64,000 nt of DNA from Gemmatimonadota bacterium (GTDB taxonomy: Bacteria > ARS69), in assembly GCA_030747075.1 (NCBI GenBank), contig JASLLL010000009.1, positions 21,992 to 85,991 of the forward strand, written 5' to 3'. The notes under the pieces were generated by a model. That model saw only the letters and a program-made list of their open reading frames with translations, was not told the origin of the DNA and ran no database searches. The position numbers were made by a program, and so were the translations under genes. Shown piece by piece: positions 10,195 to 39,991 of the stretch. The first letter of the stretch is position 1; each line of letters begins with the position of its first letter.

Positions 10195-11012
10195 GAGCGC
10201 TCTTCGGATTGGACCGACCCCTGTTTGCCATGCTCCATGTTCCGCCGTGCCCGGGCGTTCCCGGGTTCCCGGGGGTGGAGGAAGCCGTGGAGGCGATGAC
10301 GCGTGATCTGGATGCGTGTCTCGCCGGAGGGATGGATGGGGTCGTGCTTGAGAACATGCACGACTTCCCCTGCGTGCGCGAGGCGGAGATGGGGCCGGAG
10401 GTGGCGGCGTACATGACCCGCCTGGCCGTGGCGGCGCGAGCGCGGACGGATGAACTGTCCGAAGGCGCCCGCCGCCCGCCGATCGGGATTCAGGTGCTCT
10501 TCGCGGCAAACCGCACGGCTCTGGCGGTGGCGCAGGCGGCGGGACTGGACTTCATCCGTGCGGAGGCGTGGACGCATGCGCACATCAGCGACAAGGGATG
10601 GATCGATGCGCAGGGAGGGCGCGTCGTGCGTTACCAACACGCGATCGGCGCGAGCGGCATCCGTGTTTTTGTGGATGTGAAGAAGAAACACGCCAGCCAC
10701 GCGCTGACCGCGGACCTGGCTCCGGGGGAGGTGGCCGCACTTCAGGAACTGCACCGTGCGGACGGCGTGATCGTGACCGGATCGGTCACGGGGGATGCGC
10801 CGGACGCCTCGGAACTCCGGGAGATTCGCGGTCAGACGAAGCTCCCGGTTCTTCTGGGAAGCGGGATCGACGCGTCCAACCTGGCGGAGTTCTTCCCCCT
10901 TGCGGACGGGTTCATCGTGGGGACGAGCCTGAAGGAAGGCGGGGAGTGGGATGCGCCGGTGGACAAGCGGCGCGTTCGGGAACTGGCGGAAGAGGCCCGG
11001 CGGTTGCGCTAG
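10191..11012 (+). CDS. BtpA/SgcQ-family TIM-barrel protein
   Basis: 273 residues from a GTG that overlaps the pump stop by 4 bases (GTGA), so it is translationally coupled to the efflux operon. Family motifs are clear: LFAMLHVPPCPGVPGFPG at the N-terminus, GMDGVVLENMHDFP, RAEAWTHAHISDKGWID, and GVIVTGSVTGDAP followed by LLGSGIDASN. The last is a phosphate-binding-type loop near the end of the barrel. BtpA is required for photosystem I stability in cyanobacteria, and SgcQ-type relatives occur in sugar operons. The general enzymatic activity is unknown. No photosynthesis genes are present here, so the role beside a metal pump is unexplained. Its last 4 bases overlap the end of the convergent gene. 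Confidence 0.82.
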   Translation: MRALFGLDRPLFAMLHVPPCPGVPGFPGVEEAVEAMTRDLDACLAGGMDGVVLENMHDFPCVREAEMGPEVAAYMTRLAVAARARTDELSEGARRPPIGIQVLFAANRTALAVAQAAGLDFIRAEAWTHAHISDKGWIDAQGGRVVRYQHAIGASGIRVFVDVKKKHASHALTADLAPGEVAALQELHRADGVIVTGSVTGDAPDASELREIRGQTKLPVLLGSGIDASNLAEFFPLADGFIVGTSLKEGGEWDAPVDKRRVRELAEEARRLR

Positions 11013-13243
11013 TGGATGCGGACGGACTTGACGGAGGCGCGTCGTCCTCCGCCCGTGATGTTCAGGAAGTAGACTCCCGCGGGAAGCAGGGTGCCGTCGT
11101 CTGCGCGTCCGTCCCAGGTCGTGGTCGAAGCGCCTTCCCGGAATGAGGGGGGCACGAGCGTTCGCACGCATCGCCCCGCGATGTCCATGACGCGCACGGT
11201 AAGGCGCGTGCCTTCCGTTCCCGAGAGGCACAGAGTCTGTGTCCGGGAAGCGGGCTGTGGCCGGATGCCGAGTACGGCCCACGCGGCAGGGCCGCCGGTC
11301 AGGGCTTCCACCGCCGTGGACGACCCCGGGTCATCTTCCCGCATCGTGTACAATCCGGGTGCCACGCCCTTCCAGACAGTCCGGGTTCCGGATGGCCAGT
11401 TCACCACGACCGAGTCCGCGCTTTCCGATTCTTCGATGCCGAGCATGACGCGAAGCGGGTTCATGAAGCCGCGCCACGAGTTCGCGAAGACGCGGCGATG
11501 CACCTCGTCATCATCGTGGTAGGCGACGACTTTCGCCCCGACAGCGGCGTGGCCGGAGAGCGTTCCAATCAGATCAAGCCGGATCGAGACTCCCCCGGCG
11601 CGGGCATTTCGGTAGTACCGGACCACTCCGTTTGCGCTGTAGGTCTGGGGTCCCGCTCCCTCGCTCAAGAACAACTCCGGAAGTCCGTCTCCGGTCAGGT
11701 CTCCCCAGACCGCGCCATCGGCCAGTCCGGTGCTTCCTCCGGGAAGGCCTTCGCTTGCGGTCACATCCGTCAGCGTTCCCCGCTGATTGCGGTAGAGGCG
11801 GTCGGGCGCGTTCGGTTGCGCCGAGGTGCCCATGTCCACGACATGGAGGTCAAGATCGCCGTCCGCGTCATAATCCACCCAGGTGATGTGTCGCGGATTG
11901 ACCATGGCTGACAGCCCCAGACTGCTGGTGACCTCCTGGAATGTCCCGCCGTCGTTGCGCCACACCCGAGGGCTCCCCGGGATGAATCCCGAATCTTCCA
12001 GATCGACTCCGGTCGCCTGCAGCGTACTTCCGCCAGCGGTGACCCACCCGTCGAAGGTGTCGAAGTTGATGTCGGGCGTGGAACAGCGGATCTGCCACGG
12101 GCCCGACGCAGACTCCCGCCACACCCAGGTTCCGCGCTCCACGCCCGGCTGGAAGTCCGGCTGGCCGATGAACTCGGGCGTCAGGAGAATGGTCTCTCCA
12201 TTGGGGGGGATCAGTTCGTCCGGCCCCAGAAAGATGCGATTGAGGTTCTGGTAGCCGCGCAGCCGGAACTGAGCGTGCAGCGTGTCGGCCGTCGTGGAGA
12301 CAGTCAGTCCGTCCAGTCCCAGGTCTCCGTATCGTGTATTGAAGAAGTAGGAGAGCGTATCCCCGATGGTATAGGCGTCAAACACGCCGACCATGCCATC
12401 GCAAACGGCCAGATCCAGGTCTCCGTCGTTGTCGTAGTCTCCCCAGTCGGCTCCGGAGATTGTGGGAATGGAAGGGGTGAACACCTCCGACGCATCGACA
12501 AAGACTCCGCCGTCGTTGCGGTAGAGTCTGGTCGGTCGCGGGAACTCCTCTCCGCCGACCAGGAGATCCGGGTCTCCGTCGTCGTCGTAGTCTCCCCAGA
12601 TTCCCCCGACGGTGCCGTCGAACTCCTCCAGTCCGCTCCCGTCCGACACATCCACAAACGAGAACCCTCCGCGATTCCGAAAGAGAGCGTTGCCGTAATT
12701 CTCGGACGGGGCGGCTCCAGTCCACAGGTCCGGAAGACCGTCGCCATCGTAGTCGGCGGCGGACACGGCCCGGGTCCGCGTGGGCGGGGAGTCCGCGCCT
12801 CCCGCGTCGGGAACCGGAGTGAAGGCTCCGTCGCCCTCGTTCACATACAGTTCGTTGGCCTCCGGGCTGCTTCCTCCGCCCCCTCCGTGGGTGTAGAAGA
12901 TGTCAGGCAGGGGGCTGCCGTCCAGAGGCAGAGCCACGGCGCCATGCCGGTCCATCGGGCCGACCCAGGGCAGTGGATGCAAGAGGCGGGAGAAGACGCC
13001 AGTACCGTCGTTCCAGTAGAGAATGGGGGAGTAGAAGTGGTGTCCGGCGCAGAGATCCAGGTCTCCGTCGAGATCGAGGTCCGAAAGGAAAGCTCCCCAG
13101 GTCGGCTGCGTCCAGTTCAGCCCGGACGAAACCGTCTCATCGAAAAAGACGGCCCCGGCCGGGCAGCCGCCGAGGGCGATCCATAGGGCCGCACCGACGG
13201 CCAGGAAGTGTGGAATGATTGAATGACGCAACGGATGCCCCAC
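11009..13243 (-). CDS. Secreted FG-GAP/UnbV repeat protein with FlgD-like C-terminal tail
   Basis: 744 residues with a signal peptide (FLAVGAALWIALGGCPAGA). Several calcium-loop-like FG-GAP/VCBS blades follow, recognisable as DYDGDGLPDLW, DYDDDGDPDLLVGG, DYDNDGDLDLAV, DYDADGDLDLHV and DLTGDGLPELFL, consistent with a beta-propeller. Near residue 540-640 is an ASPIC/UnbV-type segment (GAKVVAY ... VVNWPSGTRTVWKGVAPG). The final 70 residues form a FlgD-like Ig domain (VRVMDIAGRCVRTL ... LLPAGVYFLNI ... SVKSVRIH), the type used as a sorting signal for type IX-like secretion in FCB bacteria. It is probably a surface or secreted protein, possibly adhesive or carbohydrate-binding. The GTG start lacks an obvious ribosome site, so the true start could lie slightly downstream. 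Confidence 0.85.
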   Translation of the reverse strand: MGHPLRHSIIPHFLAVGAALWIALGGCPAGAVFFDETVSSGLNWTQPTWGAFLSDLDLDGDLDLCAGHHFYSPILYWNDGTGVFSRLLHPLPWVGPMDRHGAVALPLDGSPLPDIFYTHGGGGGSSPEANELYVNEGDGAFTPVPDAGGADSPPTRTRAVSAADYDGDGLPDLWTGAAPSENYGNALFRNRGGFSFVDVSDGSGLEEFDGTVGGIWGDYDDDGDPDLLVGGEEFPRPTRLYRNDGGVFVDASEVFTPSIPTISGADWGDYDNDGDLDLAVCDGMVGVFDAYTIGDTLSYFFNTRYGDLGLDGLTVSTTADTLHAQFRLRGYQNLNRIFLGPDELIPPNGETILLTPEFIGQPDFQPGVERGTWVWRESASGPWQIRCSTPDINFDTFDGWVTAGGSTLQATGVDLEDSGFIPGSPRVWRNDGGTFQEVTSSLGLSAMVNPRHITWVDYDADGDLDLHVVDMGTSAQPNAPDRLYRNQRGTLTDVTASEGLPGGSTGLADGAVWGDLTGDGLPELFLSEGAGPQTYSANGVVRYYRNARAGGVSIRLDLIGTLSGHAAVGAKVVAYHDDDEVHRRVFANSWRGFMNPLRVMLGIEESESADSVVVNWPSGTRTVWKGVAPGLYTMREDDPGSSTAVEALTGGPAAWAVLGIRPQPASRTQTLCLSGTEGTRLTVRVMDIAGRCVRTLVPPSFREGASTTTWDGRADDGTLLPAGVYFLNITGGGRRASVKSVRIH

Positions 13244-22856: not shown

Positions 22857-25800
22857 ATGGCCGGTACCGATCCTCTGGAGATCCGGGCACTCTCTGATGT
22901 TCTCCACGCTTCCGGCGAAACCTATCTGAAAGACGGGGATTATACGCGCGCGGCGGAGTTCTTCCGCAAGAGCCTGGACATTCGTGAGCGGATCGGCGAA
23001 CCGCGCCTGACCGCGGATACGCTTGCGGACCTCGGGCGCGTTCTCATGCTGCTCGGAGAGATGGAAGAGGCGGCGGAGCGCGTCCGGAGCGCGCTGAAGC
23101 ATCGGGAGGACGCCGGGGACTCCGCCGGGGTGGCCGACTGTCACGATATCCTGGGGAACATCGCCCGGGGGCAGGGGCGACCCGACGAAGCGGAGTCGCA
23201 CTACGGCCGGGCGCTTGCGTTCAAGCAGGAAGCCGGGGACGAGCGCGGGATGGCCACGACCCTCGCGCTGTACGGGATTCTCCACAACGAACGCGGGGAT
23301 TATCCGGCGGCTGAAGAGCGCTATCAGGCGGCGCTCGCCATCTTCGATCGTGTCGGGGATCGGGAACAGGTGGCGTCTCTCACCAACAACCTCGGCAATC
23401 TCTACCTGCGCAAGGGAGATCCTGGCGCCGCAGCCACGGAACTGGAGAAGGCGCGGGACCTGTTCGAGGAACTCGGCGACCCGCGCGGCGTCGGCAAGTG
23501 CCTGAACAACCTTGCGGCCATCTACCGCGCCTTGGGCAAGGACAGCCCGGCGGCGGATTCCTACCGGAAGGCGCTGGGCCTTTTCGAGGAGATCGGCGAC
23601 AAGCGCGGCGCTGCGATCTCGGCGAACAATCTCGCCGTGATCGAGCAGGACTTCGGGCGATATCGGGAGGCGTCCGAGTACCACGAGCGGAGTCTGGAAC
23701 TGAAGCGGGAGATGGGGGATCGCACGGGTGAAGCCGTGTCGCTGGGGAATCTCGCGGACATTGCCTTCTTCCGTGGGGAGTGGGAGCGGGCGGACCGCCT
23801 GCACCGGCAGGCCCTGGCGATTCAGGAAGAGGTAGGCAATCGAACGGGGGAGGCCCGGCTCAGGAACCGTCGCGCCCGATTGCGACTGGTGCGCGGGGGG
23901 CGCGAGGCCGCCGCCCGGGAAGCGGCGACGGCGCGCCGACTGGGGCGCGAAGTTCAGTCGCGCGAGATCCAGGCGGAGGCGCTGCTCATCGAGGTCCGCC
24001 TTGCATCGGCAGCGGGCGACACCGGCGGGGCTCGCCGTCTTCTGGAGGAGGCCGAGGAACTCGGCCGGGCCATGCGCAGCCGGGAGACGGAGGCCGCCAT
24101 CCGCGTGGCGCGCGGGGAGGTTCTGGCGTCGGAGGGAGAGGAAGAGGCGGCTTCCACCATCTTCGACGAAGCCTCCCGGGCCTACAAACGGCTGCGGCGC
24201 TCCTTCGATCTGGCGGGGGTGGAGCTGGCGCGCGGCGTCTCGCTGGCGCGGTTCGGGCGGGGGGATCGGTGCATCGAACCGTTCGCCCGGGCCGAGGAGA
24301 TCCTGGACGGCATGGGTTCCTCGGCGCACATGCTCGCGCCGTTGAGGCAGGCGCTGGAGATTCTCGCGAAGGAGCACCCCGGCGAGGGGGTGGAACTGGC
24401 GGAGATGGGGACCCGACTCGCCCATCGCCTGGGGGACTCGGATGCTGCCCGGGACTTTCAGGAGGCGCTCCAGACGCGTGAGAGTGGCGGCGGCGAGAAC
24501 CCGGCGGAGCATCGGCTGGCGGTTCTCTCGGAGGTGACCCGACACCTTCAGGAGACCCGGCAGGCCGAAGGCGTCGCGGGCTGGATTCTGGAGCGTGTGG
24601 TAGAGGAGGTCCGTGCGGATCGCGGCCTGCTGCTGTTGCAGGAACTGGCGGGCGACGGGTTTCAGGCGGCGGCGGTCCTTCGGCTGGAGGATCCCGCGTT
24701 GACGGATGCGGTCCGCGCTGCGGAGAGGGCCGGGGAGTCGGGGGAGACGATCCGGGACTTCCAGGGCGGAGGGAGCGCGGGGAGCAGATCGAGACTTGTC
24801 GTGCCCTTCGGGGTGCGGGGGGAGGAGGGCGTGGCGGGCGTCATGCATCTGGAGGCGTCGGTCGGTGCGCGCGGGTTCTCTCTGGCGGATGCGCGCTTTG
24901 TGAGCAGTTGTCTGGCCGCCTACGCGCTCTTTCTGCGGGGCGGATCCCCCCGGGAGTCCCGGGATCGCGTGGCGGTGGGGTCGGGAAACACCCCGGCGGC
25001 CTTCTCGACGATCGTGGGAGATTCGAAGCGCATCCGCGAAGTATTCCACGCGGCCACGCGGGTCGCGGCCGGGAACGCCACCGTGCTCATTCTCGGAGAG
25101 AGCGGGACCGGGAAGGAGCTTCTGGCGCGGGGGATTCACGACTCCTCTCCGCGCACGGCGGAGCCCTTTGTGGCGGTCAACTGCCCGTCGATCCCGCGGG
25201 ACCTGCTGGAGAGCGAGCTTTTCGGGTACGAGAAGGGCGCATTCACCGGCGCCGACTCCCCCAAGGCAGGCAGGCTGGAACTGGCCGACGGAGGGACGCT
25301 CTTCCTGGACGAGGTGGCGGACCTGTCGCCGCCCGCCCAGGCGAAAATCCTGCGCGTGCTTCAGGAGCGCACCTTTGAGCGACTCGGCGGGCTGGAGACG
25401 AAGGCGGTGGATGTTCGCATCCTCGCGGCCACCTCCACCGACCTGGCCGAAGCTGTCCGAGATCGGCGCTTCCGGGAAGATCTCTACTACCGGATCAATG
25501 TGGTTCCGCTCGTACTCCCCGCACTCCGCGATCGAAAGGAGGACATCCCCGCGCTGGTGGACCACTTCCTCGCGAAGTACGCGCGGCCCGAGCGGCCCGT
25601 CCGCTTCGTCACGCCGGAGGCACTCCGTCGACTGACCGTCTACCCGTGGCCCGGGAACATTCGGGAGTTGGAGAACGCCATTCAGTACGCGGTGAGCCTC
25701 ATGGACGGAGAGACCCTGGCACCGGGAGATCTCCCCCGGACCGTTCGGTCCCACGGCGGCGGCGATCTCCGGGGGATCGGGAGCCTCCGTTCGGAACTCG

Positions 25801-26006
25801 AACGCGTCGAGAAGGAGATCATTCTGGAGATTCTGGAAGAGACCGGATGGAACCGGAGCGAGGCCGCCCGCCGTCTGGGAACTCACGAGAGCAAGATCCG
25901 TCAACGCATCCGCAAGTATGGCCTGTCTTCCCCGAAGAAGAGCGAAGAATCCGCTCGCGGAACACGCTCAGACGACCAAGGATTCGTCGATTCTGACGAA
26001 CACTGA
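22857..26006 (+). CDS. Sigma-54-dependent activator with TPR array, GAF, AAA+ and Fis-type domains
   Basis: 1049 residues, much longer than typical activators (about 450-600). About the first 330 residues are TPR repeats spaced near 40 residues (e.g. GDYTRAAEFFRKSLDIRER and GDYPAAEERYQAALAIFDR), followed by a further helical region to about 550. A GAF-like domain lies near 560-700. The AAA+ domain has the Walker A motif GESGTGKE at 747-754, the sigma-54-contacting GAFTGA near 794, DGGTLFLDEVADL as Walker B, and an arginine-finger region. A Fis-type helix-turn-helix ends the protein (NRSEAARRLGTHESKIRQRI). No phospho-acceptor receiver domain is present, so the TPR/GAF part probably senses a protein or small-molecule signal. 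A sigma-54-type promoter lies just downstream, suggesting the target. Confidence 0.92.
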   Translation: MAGTDPLEIRALSDVLHASGETYLKDGDYTRAAEFFRKSLDIRERIGEPRLTADTLADLGRVLMLLGEMEEAAERVRSALKHREDAGDSAGVADCHDILGNIARGQGRPDEAESHYGRALAFKQEAGDERGMATTLALYGILHNERGDYPAAEERYQAALAIFDRVGDREQVASLTNNLGNLYLRKGDPGAAATELEKARDLFEELGDPRGVGKCLNNLAAIYRALGKDSPAADSYRKALGLFEEIGDKRGAAISANNLAVIEQDFGRYREASEYHERSLELKREMGDRTGEAVSLGNLADIAFFRGEWERADRLHRQALAIQEEVGNRTGEARLRNRRARLRLVRGGREAAAREAATARRLGREVQSREIQAEALLIEVRLASAAGDTGGARRLLEEAEELGRAMRSRETEAAIRVARGEVLASEGEEEAASTIFDEASRAYKRLRRSFDLAGVELARGVSLARFGRGDRCIEPFARAEEILDGMGSSAHMLAPLRQALEILAKEHPGEGVELAEMGTRLAHRLGDSDAARDFQEALQTRESGGGENPAEHRLAVLSEVTRHLQETRQAEGVAGWILERVVEEVRADRGLLLLQELAGDGFQAAAVLRLEDPALTDAVRAAERAGESGETIRDFQGGGSAGSRSRLVVPFGVRGEEGVAGVMHLEASVGARGFSLADARFVSSCLAAYALFLRGGSPRESRDRVAVGSGNTPAAFSTIVGDSKRIREVFHAATRVAAGNATVLILGESGTGKELLARGIHDSSPRTAEPFVAVNCPSIPRDLLESELFGYEKGAFTGADSPKAGRLELADGGTLFLDEVADLSPPAQAKILRVLQERTFERLGGLETKAVDVRILAATSTDLAEAVRDRRFREDLYYRINVVPLVLPALRDRKEDIPALVDHFLAKYARPERPVRFVTPEALRRLTVYPWPGNIRELENAIQYAVSLMDGETLAPGDLPRTVRSHGGGDLRGIGSLRSELERVEKEIILEILEETGWNRSEAARRLGTHESKIRQRIRKYGLSSPKKSEESARGTRSDDQGFVDSDEH

Positions 26007-26651: not shown

Positions 26652-27662
26652 ATGCAACTCAAAATGCGCTCACACTTTGCGTCGGCGACTCGGATCGCGT
26701 CGCTTCTTCTGCTTGCGGGTTCTCTTGCGCTCCCGGCAGAGGCCGCGGTGATGATCAATGAGTTCGAACGCGCGTCGGGTTCGGACTATGTGGAGCTCTA
26801 CAACGACGGGACGGTCTCGGTGGATCTCTCCGGTTGGACACTGGAGAGCAAGCTGGGCGTGGTCATTCCTCTGTCCGGTGTCATTTCCGGAGGCGGATAC
26901 ACCACGCACAGCACATCCAATGTCGTGCTCGACGGGGGGGAGATCGAACTTTACGACGGCAGTTACCTCAAGCGTGACGAAGTCGCTTTCGGATCCGCCG
27001 GGGGGGCGCCCGCCGTACCGCCGATCGGTTCATACTCCTGCGGTCGCGCCCCGAACGGTACAGACACCGGGAACGACGCCGCCGACTGGAACCTGGCGAC
27101 CAGCAACTCACTCGGTTTTGCAAATACGCACCCGGTCGCGAATCTGAACGGCTGGGTGGCCATGAACGAAGTGGGCTTCCAGAGGTTCCGCTCCTCCGCG
27201 GGGTGTGAACTCGGAGCGACCGTGGTGGAACTGTTCAACTCCACCGGAACCTATGTGGATCTCTACGGGTGGTGGGTGACCAACGGCCGCAAGGTGACCG
27301 TTCTCTTCGGGATGATTGCCCCGAACGGATTTGCCGTATTCAATGACCTTGCCACGGGGTTCTGCTTTGACGAGACCGAAGTGATCTATCTCTTCGGACC
27401 CACCGGTCGACGCTTCGATCAGTTCGGTACGAAAGGCGCCCGGCTCCCCGACGAGAGCTTTACCTTCCAGCGTGTTCCGGACGGCACGGGCGGACAGGGT
27501 CCCTTCGACGGGTTCGACTATGTATCGAGCGGCGGGTCGAGGGTGCTGTTCATGCTCCCGCAAACCTGGAACGACACGAACGATCAGGCCACGCCGATGG
27601 CGGCGGACGACCCCGCGATCGAGGCCGGAAGCTGGGGGAGGGTCAAGGCCCTCTACCGCTAG
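26652..27662 (+). CDS. Secreted lamin-tail-domain protein with C-terminal WGxVKxLYR tail
   Basis: 336 residues from the ATG 9 bases after AGGAGG. A signal peptide ends near AGSLALPAEA. Two lamin-tail domains follow: AVMINEFERASGSDYVELYN with VDLSGWTLES, and a second with WVAMNEVGFQRFRSSAGC and VDLYGWWVTNG. In bacteria these Ig-like domains occur in secreted or surface proteins, often beside nucleases or phosphatases; no enzyme domain is present here. The last 11 residues, GSWGRVKALYR, match the end of an unrelated secreted protein at 36875-37393, suggesting a sorting tag. It lies 90 bases after the small exported protein and may share its promoter. An imperfect GAGAGG/CCTCTC hairpin lies in the gap. 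Confidence 0.8.
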   Translation: MQLKMRSHFASATRIASLLLLAGSLALPAEAAVMINEFERASGSDYVELYNDGTVSVDLSGWTLESKLGVVIPLSGVISGGGYTTHSTSNVVLDGGEIELYDGSYLKRDEVAFGSAGGAPAVPPIGSYSCGRAPNGTDTGNDAADWNLATSNSLGFANTHPVANLNGWVAMNEVGFQRFRSSAGCELGATVVELFNSTGTYVDLYGWWVTNGRKVTVLFGMIAPNGFAVFNDLATGFCFDETEVIYLFGPTGRRFDQFGTKGARLPDESFTFQRVPDGTGGQGPFDGFDYVSSGGSRVLFMLPQTWNDTNDQATPMAADDPAIEAGSWGRVKALYR

Positions 27663-35627: not shown

Positions 35628-35758
35628 GGCGACGCTCCTTGCATGAGTACGCGCAGGCTACCAGAGAAGGCGCGTGCCGGGCGTCTCTTTCTTGCGCGGG
35701 GCTTGCGTCGGTGCCAGCTTCCCCGCATTCTCTGCGGCGACCGTCGGGAGGGGATCGC

Positions 35759-36601
35759 ATGGCCGGGGTTCGGACGCTTCTGTCCTTCGTGAAGTTCGAG
35801 CACACGCTCTTTTCATTGCCGGTGATCGTGGCCGGTGCGGTGCTCGCGTCCGGCGGGGTGCCGGAAGGGGCCGTGCTTGCGTGGGTTCTGGTTGCCGGGA
35901 CAGGAGCGAGGACGGTCGCGATGGCGCTCAACCGGCTCATCGACCGGGAGATTGACGCACGGAATCCGCGTACTGCATCCCGTGAGATCCCGGCGGGCAG
36001 GATGTCCACGCTTGGCGGCTGGGGCGTGGCGATCGCCGGGTTGGTGCTGTACTTCGGGGCGCTGGCGTTTCTCCCGCCGCTGTGCCTTGCGCTGTCCCCC
36101 GTCCCGCTGATGGTGTTCGTGATCTATCCGCTCATGAAGCGATTCACTCCGCTCGCGCACTTCGGCGTGGGAGCCGGGCTTGCGCTGGGACCTCTCGGGG
36201 CGTGGGTCGCGGTCACGGGTACGCTGGTTCCCTGGGGGCCGGCGCATACGCTGGCGGTCTTCACGCTCCTGTGGGTGGCCGGATTCGATGTGATCTACGC
36301 CACGCTGGATGAAGATTTCGACCGCGCGGAGGGACTCCGCTCGCTGCCCGCGTCATTGGGACGGACGCGCGCGCTTCGAGCGGCACGCGGGGTCCATGTC
36401 GCCGCGTTCGTCGCCCTTGCGCTGGTCGCGGCACCCGCGATGCCGGGCGCGGGGTCGTGGTTTCTGCTGGCCGCGGTCGGAGCGATGCTCGTGGCTGAAC
36501 ATGTCCTCGCGGCTCGCGTGGACCTCTCGTTTTTCCGGATCAATGCGGCGCTCGGGTTTGTCGTGCTGGCATTCGTCTGGAGCATCCTTCCCGCAGGCTG
36601 A
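35759..36601 (+). CDS. UbiA-family prenyltransferase, probably menaquinone (MqnP-like)
   Basis: 280 residues from the ATG after GGGAGGGG. About eight membrane spans. The first Asp-rich motif is NRLIDREIDARNPRT, which binds Mg and the prenyl diphosphate. The second is DVIYATLDEDFDRAEGLRSL. Because UbiX-, UbiD-, MqnE-, MqnA- and MqnC-type genes follow within 6 kb, this enzyme most likely attaches the polyprenyl chain to the 1,4-dihydroxy-6-naphthoate ring in the futalosine pathway rather than making ubiquinone. That assignment rests on context. It is followed 22 bases later by a small membrane protein gene. Confidence 0.85.
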   Translation: MAGVRTLLSFVKFEHTLFSLPVIVAGAVLASGGVPEGAVLAWVLVAGTGARTVAMALNRLIDREIDARNPRTASREIPAGRMSTLGGWGVAIAGLVLYFGALAFLPPLCLALSPVPLMVFVIYPLMKRFTPLAHFGVGAGLALGPLGAWVAVTGTLVPWGPAHTLAVFTLLWVAGFDVIYATLDEDFDRAEGLRSLPASLGRTRALRAARGVHVAAFVALALVAAPAMPGAGSWFLLAAVGAMLVAEHVLAARVDLSFFRINAALGFVVLAFVWSILPAG

Positions 36602-36623
36602 ATCCGTCGAGGGGAGAGGGATC

Positions 36624-36884
36624 ATGACGACACAACTCTGGCTGCTCGCGGGAGCGATCCTCGTGGTCAATCTTCCCTTCGGATACTGGCGCGCCGCGTG
36701 CCGGAGGCGGAGTGCGGCCTGGTTTCTGGCGATCCACATTCCCGTTCTCCTTGTGATCGGGATGCGCGCGCTCCTCGGCGTATCGCTCCACTACACGACC
36801 CTTCCCGTGACCGTGGGAGCGTTTGCCGCCGGGCAGTTTCTCGGCAGCCGTCTTCGCGGGCGCGGCTCCCCGCCTCAGCGGTAG
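36624..36884 (+). CDS. Small two- or three-span membrane protein
   Basis: 86 residues from the ATG preceded by GGGGAGAGGG. Hydrophobic stretches are LWLLAGAILVVNLPFGYWRA, AAWFLAIHIPVLLVIGMRAL and LPVTVGAFAAGQFLGSRL, with basic residues between and at the end. No named family is recognised. It lies 22 bases downstream of the UbiA-type gene and is probably co-transcribed. A role in quinone synthesis or membrane organisation is only inferred from position. Its 3' end overlaps the convergent cytochrome-like gene by 10 bases. Confidence 0.7.
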   Translation: MTTQLWLLAGAILVVNLPFGYWRAACRRRSAAWFLAIHIPVLLVIGMRALLGVSLHYTTLPVTVGAFAAGQFLGSRLRGRGSPPQR

Positions 36885-37393
36885 AGCGACTTGACCTGTC
36901 CCCAGGAACCCGGGGGGCAGCAGTCTTCCGGCGCGGAGACATCCGGCGACTCCAGCGCCCCGGTGTCGATCCACTCGCGAATCACATCGATCACCGGCTG
37001 ACTCAAGGGCTGTGCGCCGCGAGGCATCCGCGAACCGACCATCCCCTGACAGAACTCCAGCTTGCAGATGAGGTAGCTGTTGTCCGCGGAGAACGGCTCG
37101 ACCCGCAGCCACGAGGGAGCCTGCGAACTCCCGATGCCCACGAGCGAAGCCCAGGAGTTGCCGTCGCGAAGATCCAGTGAGGCCTGGGCCGCGCTTCCAT
37201 GACAGAAGGAGGCGGCGCAACCCGGCGTGAAGACATTCGCCTGGATGGCGGGCAACTCGGGAGGAAAGAACTCCCCGCGGGAAGGCGGGGCTTTGGCATG
37301 GGGTTCCGCCCCGGGTTGGGCGGCAGGACCGGCGGACGCGGCGACGGGCAGCAGAGCGACGAACGCGAGGATGGCGAGGATCACGAGGCGCAC
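36875..37393 (-). CDS. Secreted cytochrome-like protein with C-terminal WGxVKxLYR tail
   Basis: 172 residues if started at the GTG after GGGAAGAG; longer in-frame versions have no better start. A signal peptide ends near AFVALLPVAASA. The mature part has VFTPGCAASFCHGSAAQASL, a CX4CH motif instead of CXXCH. It also has SWLRVEPFSADNSYLICKLE, GSRMPRGAQPLS and VIREWIDTGA, the layout of short c-type-cytochrome-like domains of myxobacteria and planctomycetes. Heme attachment through CX4CH is known but uncommon, so heme content is uncertain. The last 11 residues, GSWGQVKSLYR, match the tail of the lamin-tail protein at 26652. It sits on the opposite strand between UbiA- and UbiX-type genes. Confidence 0.72.
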   Translation of the reverse strand: MRLVILAILAFVALLPVAASAGPAAQPGAEPHAKAPPSRGEFFPPELPAIQANVFTPGCAASFCHGSAAQASLDLRDGNSWASLVGIGSSQAPSWLRVEPFSADNSYLICKLEFCQGMVGSRMPRGAQPLSQPVIDVIREWIDTGALESPDVSAPEDCCPPGSWGQVKSLYR

Positions 37394-37549
37394 GCGTCTC
37401 TTCCCGGGTTGGGCGTTTCGGACTCTCCGGAGTCGATCTTCGGGAGCGGGGATAGCAGAGATACGGGACTTTACCCCCGGAGCGTAGCTTACTCCGTGGC
37501 CGGAAGCCAGCCGTTGGGGAGAGGCCCGGGAACGGGGCTTTCCGTCGCG

Positions 37550-37578
37550 TTGACGCACTTCCGGGAGCAAGCTAGCCT
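37550..37578 (+). promoter_or_regulatory. Candidate promoter of the ubiX-ubiD pair
   Basis: TTGACG (37550-37555), 17 bases, then TAGCCT (37573-37578), ending about 50 bases before the ubiX start. Its form is close to the erpA promoter (TTGACA-N17-TACCTT). The 235-base gap also holds an imperfect CGGAG/CTCCG inverted repeat near 37480 of unknown meaning. Confidence 0.5.
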
Positions 37579-37628
37579 GCACGCTTCATCCGGCCGCCCT
37601 GCAGGCGTCCCCTTTCGGGAGAGAGACC

Positions 37629-38183
37629 TTGCGCACCGTCGTGGTTGTCACCGGAGCCTCCGGGTCCATCTTTGCGGTCGAGTTGCTGCGGCGGCTTCCC
37701 GGCGAGAAGTTCCTGATAACGACGAAGTGGGGGAAGGTCGTCCTGCGGGAGGAGACGGGGCTTGCGGAGGCGGACCTTGGCGAACTGGCGGACGCGGTCT
37801 TCCCGGATGACGATCTTGCCTCGCCGCTGTCGTCCGGATCCAATCCGTTCGATGCGGTCGTCGTCCTGCCGGGGAGCGCGGGCTTCCTCGCGAAGGTGGC
37901 AAACGGAATGGGCGACACGCTGGGCACTCGCGTCTGTCACATCGCGCTCAAGGAACGGCGGCGCCTCGTCTACTGCCTTCGCGAGAGTCCGCTGACGGCC
38001 ATCGCGCTGGACAACGCCGCGCGACTTTCCCGGGAGGGCGCGGTACTGATGCCGGTGTCCCCGTTCTTCTACGGCAAGCCGGACTCGCTGGAGCGTCTTG
38101 TCGGCGACTTCGTGGATCGCGTCGTGCAGGTGGCCGCGGGCATTCCGCCCGCGGACGGATGGCGTCGCGAGGATCTTTCGTGA
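37629..38183 (+). CDS. ubiX: UbiX-type flavin prenyltransferase
   Basis: 184 residues from a TTG after GGGAGAGAG. The FMN-binding start VVVVTGASGSIFAVELLRRL, the ITTKWGKVV strand and PGSAGFLAKVANGMGDTL are typical. So are LVYCLRESPLTAIALDNAARL and VLMPVSPFFYGKP near the C-terminus. UbiX makes prenylated FMN from FMN and dimethylallyl phosphate, the cofactor used by UbiD-type decarboxylases. The UbiD-type gene follows with a GTGA overlap, so production of enzyme and cofactor is coupled. In this setting the pair probably decarboxylates 1,4-dihydroxy-6-naphthoate or its prenylated form on the way to menaquinone. Confidence 0.9.
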   Translation: MRTVVVVTGASGSIFAVELLRRLPGEKFLITTKWGKVVLREETGLAEADLGELADAVFPDDDLASPLSSGSNPFDAVVVLPGSAGFLAKVANGMGDTLGTRVCHIALKERRRLVYCLRESPLTAIALDNAARLSREGAVLMPVSPFFYGKPDSLERLVGDFVDRVVQVAAGIPPADGWRREDLS

Positions 38184-39991
38184 GGGCGCCGGACCTGCGT
38201 TCGTTCCTCGCGGAAGTGGATCGCGCGGGGGAGCTGCGGCGCGTGACCGCGCGGGTGGATTCGCATCTCGAAATCACGGAGATCTGCCAGCGAATCGTTC
38301 GGGAGGAAGGCCCCGCGTTGCTCTTCGAGAATGTGGAGGGGGCGGACTTTCCGCTGGCCATCAATCTGTTCGGGTCTCGGCGCAGGATTGCGATTGCCCT
38401 TGGCGGGAAGGAACCGGCGGAGGCAGGCGGGGAGCTTCTTGCGATGGCGGGGGCGTTCATGCCGCCTGAGCCGGGGAAGATCCTCCGCGCCGCTCCGCAA
38501 CTCGTGCGCGCCCTGGGGATGCGGACTCGCGTGCGTCGCGGGGGGGCTGTGCGGGAGGTGGAGGAAGCGCCGGACCTCACGCGCCTGCCGGTATTGACCT
38601 GCTGGCCGGAAGACGGCGGACCGTTCGTGACCTTCCCGCTGGTCGTCACGCGCAGCCTGCGCGACGGAACTCCGAATGTCGGCATCTACCGTATGCAGGT
38701 GTTCGGGCCCGATGAGACGGGGATGCACTGGCAGATCGGCAAGGGCGGCGGGTATCACTTCCACGACGCGGAAGGACTCGGGCGCCCGCTGCCTGTCACG
38801 GTCGCGCTGGGCGGGGATCCGCTGGTGATGATGGCGGCGATGATGCCGCTTCCGGAGGGGCTGTCCGAGTACGCGTTCGCCGGACTGTTGCGCGGGAAAC
38901 CCGTGATCCTCAGCCGCAGCGGGGGGCGTGCGCCGGATGTTCCGGCCGGTGCGGAGTTTGCGCTGGAGGGCGTCGTGGAGCCGGGTGTGCGCCGCACGGA
39001 AGGTCCATTCGGCGATCACTTCGGGCACTACTCTGCCGCCGCGTCCTTCCCCGTGTTTCGTGTGACGCGAATGACGCGCCGCCGCGACGCCATCTATCCG
39101 GCGATCGTGGTCGGGAAGCCGCCACAGGAGGACGGCTTCCTCGGGAATGCCGTGCAGGAGCTCCTCGGTCCGCTCATCCGCATCCCGCACCCGGAGATCC
39201 GCGATCTCTGGAGCTGGGAAGCCACCGGGTTCCACCACCTCCTGGTGGCGTCGGCGGAGCAGCGGTTCACGCGCGAGGCCATGCGTTCGGCGTTCGGCCT
39301 TCTGGGGCAGGGGCAACTGGGTCTGACGAAGGTGCTCTTGATGGTGGGCCCGGGGGTCGATCCCCGAAACCTCGACGATGTGCTGGAAGCCATCGCCACC
39401 GACTTCGACCCGTCGCGGGACTTCATGCTTCTGCCCCGGGTTCCTTTCGACACGCTGGACTTCACCAGCACGACGATGAACCTCGGCAGCAAGATGATCC
39501 TGGACGCCACCCCGGGTCCGGGGGATGCGGACGAAGCGCGTCCGGCTCCCACGCCGGACGGACTGGCGCTCGTGCCGGATCTGACCGGCGTGGACCGGCG
39601 GATTGTCGGGCAGGCGCTTCTCGGCCGGGCGATCCTCGTGGTGCGCGTGGAGGGGGAGAACCCGCGGGAAGTTCTTGCGAAGGTGCTGGACGCGCTGCGC
39701 GGGAGCGAATCGGATGCCGACCTCGTGACTCCGCCGAAGATCGTCGCGGCCGTATCTCCCGACATTCCCGAGAACAACCGGGATCTTCTCCTGTGGGGGA
39801 TCTTCACGCGCTTTGATCCCGCGCGGGATGTCTTCTTCGAAGAATCTTCGCTGCGCGGCGCGTGGCCGGTTCATCGCGGGCGGATGGCGATCGACGCGAC
39901 ATTCAAGACCGGCTACCCGAACCCGCTGGAAATGTCCCCGGAGGTCGTGGCGAAGGTGGATCGCCGCTGGAGGGAGTACTTTCCAGCGTAG
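38180..39991 (+). CDS. ubiD: UbiD-family prenyl-FMN decarboxylase, probably menaquinone pathway
   Basis: 603 residues from the GTG that overlaps the ubiX stop by 4 bases and follows GAGGA; an ATG at 38159 is the alternative. Motifs: LRSFLAEVDRAGELRRVTAR at the N-terminus, TLGGKEP-like RIAIALGGKEPAE, GIYRMQVFGPDETGMHWQIG, EGPFGDHFGHYS (metal/prenyl-FMN region with Glu-x-Pro) and YPAIVVGKPPQEDGFLG. It is about 100 residues longer than E. coli UbiD, as in the larger UbiD group found with futalosine genes. The protein should be cytoplasmic, Mn- and prenyl-FMN-dependent. Its exact substrate (naphthoate before or after prenylation) is inferred from neighbours. Confidence 0.88.
   Translation: MRAPDLRSFLAEVDRAGELRRVTARVDSHLEITEICQRIVREEGPALLFENVEGADFPLAINLFGSRRRIAIALGGKEPAEAGGELLAMAGAFMPPEPGKILRAAPQLVRALGMRTRVRRGGAVREVEEAPDLTRLPVLTCWPEDGGPFVTFPLVVTRSLRDGTPNVGIYRMQVFGPDETGMHWQIGKGGGYHFHDAEGLGRPLPVTVALGGDPLVMMAAMMPLPEGLSEYAFAGLLRGKPVILSRSGGRAPDVPAGAEFALEGVVEPGVRRTEGPFGDHFGHYSAAASFPVFRVTRMTRRRDAIYPAIVVGKPPQEDGFLGNAVQELLGPLIRIPHPEIRDLWSWEATGFHHLLVASAEQRFTREAMRSAFGLLGQGQLGLTKVLLMVGPGVDPRNLDDVLEAIATDFDPSRDFMLLPRVPFDTLDFTSTTMNLGSKMILDATPGPGDADEARPAPTPDGLALVPDLTGVDRRIVGQALLGRAILVVRVEGENPREVLAKVLDALRGSESDADLVTPPKIVAAVSPDIPENNRDLLLWGIFTRFDPARDVFFEESSLRGAWPVHRGRMAIDATFKTGYPNPLEMSPEVVAKVDRRWREYFPA

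Follow-up and report, generated by a model that had tools for sequence, protein, structure and literature searches.

A short C-terminal tail on unrelated exported proteins in genomes that encode a type IX secretion system

Within the window, the whole 64,000-nucleotide stretch of a Gemmatimonadota bacterium contig analysed here, two genes encode otherwise dissimilar exported proteins that end in nearly the same eleven residues, raising the question of whether this ending is a sorting tag and, if so, what reads it. The first protein, 336 residues encoded at 26652..27662 on the plus strand, has an N-terminal signal peptide and a body that is a Lamin Tail Domain (PF00932, 3.7e-15), as an earlier note on this DNA had proposed. 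It ends GSWGRVKALYR, and this tail with its stop codon occupies 27627..27662, beginning at 27627 rather than at the 27630 given previously. The second, 172 residues from a GTG start (36875..37393, minus strand), also begins with a signal peptide, both being recognized by a heuristic, and ends GSWGQVKSLYR (36875..36910, minus strand, stop codon included). It has no Pfam match, and its description as cytochrome-like has as its sole basis the heme-like C and CH residues seen by eye in CAASFCH. As had been claimed, the two tails are identical at 9 of 11 residues and both are flush with their stop codons, and similarity does not extend further: BLASTP aligns essentially only the last 34 residues (E 2e-5). 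As a DNA pattern, WGx[VIM]Kxx[YF]R-stop matches these two sites in the window and none in 100 shuffles. Directly upstream of the lamin-tail gene, at 22857-26006 on the plus strand, is a gene for a sigma-54 activator fused to a long TPR array, and the second tagged gene is surrounded by UbiA, UbiX-like flavoprotein and UbiD genes (35639-39991).

A third protein of the window, with FG-GAP and UnbV_ASPIC domains (PF13517, PF07593), provides the contrast. It is encoded at 11009..13243, on what proves to be the minus strand, and ends SVKSVRIH in a FlgD-Ig domain (PF13860, 3.3e-8), as the FlgD-like label had it, with weak similarity to the Por_Secre_tail of the type IX secretion system (T9SS; PF18962, E 0.02). 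From this longer ending beside the short tail, the earlier note had supposed that the organism may run two sorting systems. A separate second system is not supported: the FlgD-like ending groups with the C-terminal domains of T9SS, for which the short tail may serve as another signal.

The tail is not confined to the window. The 2.67 Mb genome from which the window comes has 12 strict matches, including that of the lamin-tail protein, and none to a reversed-pattern control; all 12 terminate an open reading frame. A simple heuristic recognizes a signal peptide at the start of all these frames except one; L010, among the 12, is too incomplete at its 5′-end in the stretch read to be judged in this respect. 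Near-variants in the same genome include WGSVKGLYK, WGVVKSEYR and, extended by a further one or seven residues, WGGVKALYR and WGSVKAFFR. Seven additional residues follow the tail of one small exported protein, cupredoxin-like by eye (L209, G000:C10; SWGSVKAFFRYALPKK), in which it may have decayed or shifted. A survey of 386 genomes, 381 of them from outside the phylum, found a match in 43, and the absence of any match to the reversed control in all 386 led us to reject a chance origin of the tail. Copy number is bimodal, with 8-54 copies in each of 17 genomes belonging to eight families and one or two in the other 26. All five genomes of the same phylum that were examined have 11-24 copies; beyond the phylum, 12 genomes from seven further families have 8-54 copies each. 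A narrower, high-GC form of the pattern, used to scan named genomes, found tail-bearing records mostly in Eisenbacteria and also in Krumholzibacteriia, Latescibacterota, Effluviviaceae, Poribacteria, UBP1, Planctomycetota (one record) and 'Gemmatimonadota' bacterium DHS20C21, in which the tagged contigs have the same coordinates as those of genome G001 of the phylum. A match in Nocardia, in the short, atypical ORF KRRWRRWGMIKKVYR, is evidently due to chance.

In the 17 genomes with 8-54 copies, the motif occurs 429 times and is followed directly by a stop-like codon in 378 (88%), against the approximately 6%, or 1 in 16, expected by chance. With this and the signal-peptide enrichment given below, it passes the test that the earlier note had named as able to refute the tag. 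The strict consensus is [ST]-W-G-x-[IV]-K-[AS]-[LM]-Y-R-stop, shortened below to SWGxIKxLYR, and alignment of 195 distinct tails extends it to [VTS]-[PSA]-[VT]-E-x-x-[ST]-W-G-x-[IV]-K-[ASG]-[LM]-Y-R. In these consensus sequences W, G, K and R were fixed by the search pattern, and the I/V/M and Y/F positions limited by it, with the remaining positions free to vary. The position table of the 195 aligned tails has no hydrophobic stretch and nothing after the motif. In predicted structures, the bodies of tagged proteins are folded; the tail forms a loose helix at a pLDDT of about 55 or is disordered, at about 40.

The same heuristic rule, applied to simple gene calls, predicts a signal peptide for 99 of 120 intact tagged ORFs versus 137 of 353 untagged neighbours (p 2e-17), consistent with the proposed enrichment on signal-peptide proteins. 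Once trimmed of their signal peptides and tails, 139 tagged proteins fall into 60 clusters, and the domains seen in them, such as beta-helix, NHL, FG-GAP, LTD and laminin G, are of the surface type. At least four cysteines are present in 82% of the 139, a share that could reflect disulfide-rich cargo or the general background. Tagged proteins are shorter than proteins with long T9SS tails, with medians of 261 and 534 residues, respectively, the second value coming from a set of 36 that a rough pattern had picked out. No ORF was found that has both a short and a long tail, and in three homologous pairs one member has the short tail and the other a long T9SS tail (L175, within one contig; L045/L121; L003/L144). 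When the genes in short flanks at 115 named loci were all compared with one another, no clearly recurrent untagged family emerged beside the tagged genes, and dedicated machinery adjoining them was rejected on this range; the largest untagged groups, one of them PorV-like in appearance, span 4-6 of the 115 loci, a rate near chance.

Among the known sorting signals closest to the tail is the T9SS type A domain (TIGR04183/PF18962). This is likewise C-terminal, preceded by a short linker, ends in hydrophobic residues followed by a terminal basic residue, and is present in the same genomes on Sec-exported, often surface or secreted, proteins. In 52 long tails identified by a rough pattern, R/K is at position -1 in 83%, L at -3 in 55% and R/K at -6 in 83%. 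The type A domain is, however, an Ig-like beta-sandwich of about 75 residues, whereas the short tail has about 10-18 residues and no fold of its own, matches no profile and has a W-G-x-[IV]-K core for which the long domains showed no counterpart. Type B (TIGR04131) and type C domains are alternative T9SS signals, recognized differently from type A (PMC10202324, PMC12618676), but require about 100-235 residues and are described from Bacteroidota. An NCBIfam scan of 10 tagged proteins found no type A, B or C domain and, up to E 10, no tail model on any C-terminus, and the T9SS tail is absent from the 139 tagged proteins among the Pfam families listed, 25 of 32. Tagged proteins thus mostly have the Sec signal peptide of T9SS substrates and occur in genomes with SprA, PorV and PorU, but none in these scans had a known type A, B or C domain. 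The tails of LPXTG, PEP-CTERM and other sortase or exosortase substrates are also short C-terminal motifs on unrelated exported proteins, but the motif is followed by a membrane-spanning segment and a basic cluster; the tail described here ends at its motif and has neither, nor a match to a curated tail model. As no Pfam or NCBIfam tail model matched in these scans, the known sorting tails were rejected as the identity of the tag.

The association with T9SS shows at the level of the genome. SprA is encoded in 42 of the 43 tail genomes versus 60 of the 343 tail-free genomes (Fisher p 1e-26, a value inflated by shared ancestry), and the one exception, G106, has long T9SS tails and PorV. The earlier note had advised looking for a co-occurring peptidase or transporter gene, and SprA, PorV and PorU are found in tail genomes. 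In the genome of the window, SprA scores 578.7 bits (TIGR04189, cut-off 200), PorU 542 bits (NF033707, cut-off 420) and the PorV family 195.5 bits (NF033709, cut-off 90; PF19572 was also passed). These genes lie outside the window on other contigs (C7, C14), and the genome has 33 long T9SS tails. Long T9SS tails are present in all 32 tail genomes tested, with 22 or more in each, PorV-family proteins and C25 peptidases in all 30 tested, and PorU adjoins PorV in nearly all of the tail-genome loci read. The SprA neighbourhood includes LptF/LptG, RimP, NusA and IF-2, recognized by inspection and synteny, and an M28 peptidase (Pfam); no tagged gene is located beside SprA. At G000:C7 (L192) and at most of L193-L205, SprA is positioned between LptF/LptG-like permease genes and the NusA/IF-2 translation cluster, an order conserved in the multi-copy lineages. 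At G000:C14 (L240:4885-13981), PorU and PorV form a conserved cluster with a large M6-like protein, whose best match, NF052323, falls below its cut-off; an NHL protein is beside the cluster and, in other genomes, barrel-like proteins. The M6-like T9SS-dependent protein and the barrel-like proteins beside PorU-PorV are missing in G034, the sole tail-free genome viewed and too small a sample for comparison.

Even with a looser pattern, 60 SprA genomes, including those with the strongest SprA matches (G207, G337), have background matches alone. T9SS evidently does not, therefore, need the tail, and a reader beyond SprA, a receptor specific to the tail genomes, is to be expected; none was found. 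A SprA tree groups the multi-copy genomes in a single large clade, with no more than four label changes, and the single-copy genomes associated with PorD are mainly in another, with tail-free genomes, including G207 and G337, nested there. Given this clustering, the genomes are not independent, and the tail is either old or has arisen more than once.

The single-copy genomes provide a more local link. At nine loci, the lone tagged gene encodes an FN3-like exported protein of ~140 residues that ends TWG[SA]IKA[MLI]FR. These proteins are 31-42% identical to the first of them, and 9 of their 13 invariant columns are within the last ten residues. The adjoining gene in G005, G055 and G328 is porD (PF16119), which in G298 is one gene away. 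PorD, which belongs to the extended T9SS translocon (PMC10994853), is present in all 8 tested genomes with the FN3-like tagged protein and in none of 22 further genomes that bear the tail. It was not detected in the multi-copy tail genomes and so was rejected as the tail receptor there.

Plainly observed, then, are a strongly conserved tail flush with the stop codon, its presence on exported bodies of 60 unrelated kinds and its near-restriction to SprA genomes. Almost certainly it is a genuine tag, C-terminal and under selection, carried by exported proteins; the flush position, the signal-peptide enrichment and the co-occurring T9SS genes support the earlier note in its claim of such a tag at the C-terminus of exported proteins. 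One alternative, duplication of one gene family with retention of its C-terminus, is very improbable: tandem paralogues do exist among the tagged genes (for example L019, L030 and L049), but the 60 clusters have no detectable similarity outside the tail and quite different folds. Gene-family expansion was rejected for the tail as a whole and holds only inside clusters. That the tail is instead a quality control or assembly element, resisting or recruiting a periplasmic protease or docking a chaperone, would fit its placement flush with the carboxyl end, its basic and aromatic character and its predicted loosely helical or disordered state, but such a general signal would be expected more widely, rather than almost wholly in SprA lineages and on surface-type cargo, and we consider this explanation improbable.

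What reads the tag is less certain. A short linear C-terminal sorting signal recognized by T9SS is the reading that we consider probable, with due reserve. It has a possible, if rather doubtful, competitor in a sorting or anchoring tag for a separate receptor or enzyme, such as a periplasmic or outer-membrane anchor, in lineages where T9SS is merely ancestral; this would be a non-T9SS C-terminal tag system with its own receptor, common to several candidate phyla around Bacteroidota, and as such we regard it as equally tentative. The 60 tail-free SprA genomes, the absence of PorD from multi-copy genomes, the lack of any T9SS domain model that matches the tail and the smaller size of the tagged proteins all favour a separate receptor. 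Against it are the presence of SprA in all but one of the tail genomes, the adjacency of porD to the tagged gene in several genomes, the short or long tails on homologous bodies and, within the short flanks alone, the absence of any other common gene beside the tagged genes.

If T9SS does read the tail, tagged proteins would be exported by Sec, judging by their signal peptides, and would fold in the periplasm, where a flexible linker, typically V-E-x-x, would present SWGxIKxLYR at the free C-terminus. Recognition of this end by the T9SS components of the outer membrane, SprA together with a PorV-family carrier, would then presumably bring the protein to the cell surface or keep it there, as the C-terminal domains of ~75 residues do for other proteins of the genome; PorU might remove the tail later. 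We suggest, by analogy only, that the short tail could imitate the last strand of the long domain, which is reasonable because one T9SS domain needs no more than its final 22 residues to direct secretion (PMC10202324).

The tail is previously unmodelled: none of the Pfam or NCBIfam models, nor any paper found, describes it. Literature searches also yielded nothing on T9SS in Eisenbacteria, Krumholzibacter or Latescibacter, or on C-terminal sorting or secretion in Eisenbacteria. The T9SS signals known so far are folded domains, roughly 75-235 residues long, and one recent review describes domains of this kind as restricted to Bacteroidota (PMC10202324). Here, a genuine-looking T9SS is present outside named Bacteroidota, in genomes in which dozens of exported proteins end in a ten-residue peptide. 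If this system reads the tail, its minimal recognition element would be a peptide that can be synthesized and tested directly, and the tail offers a route to those exported proteins that escape the present tail models in several uncultured phyla.
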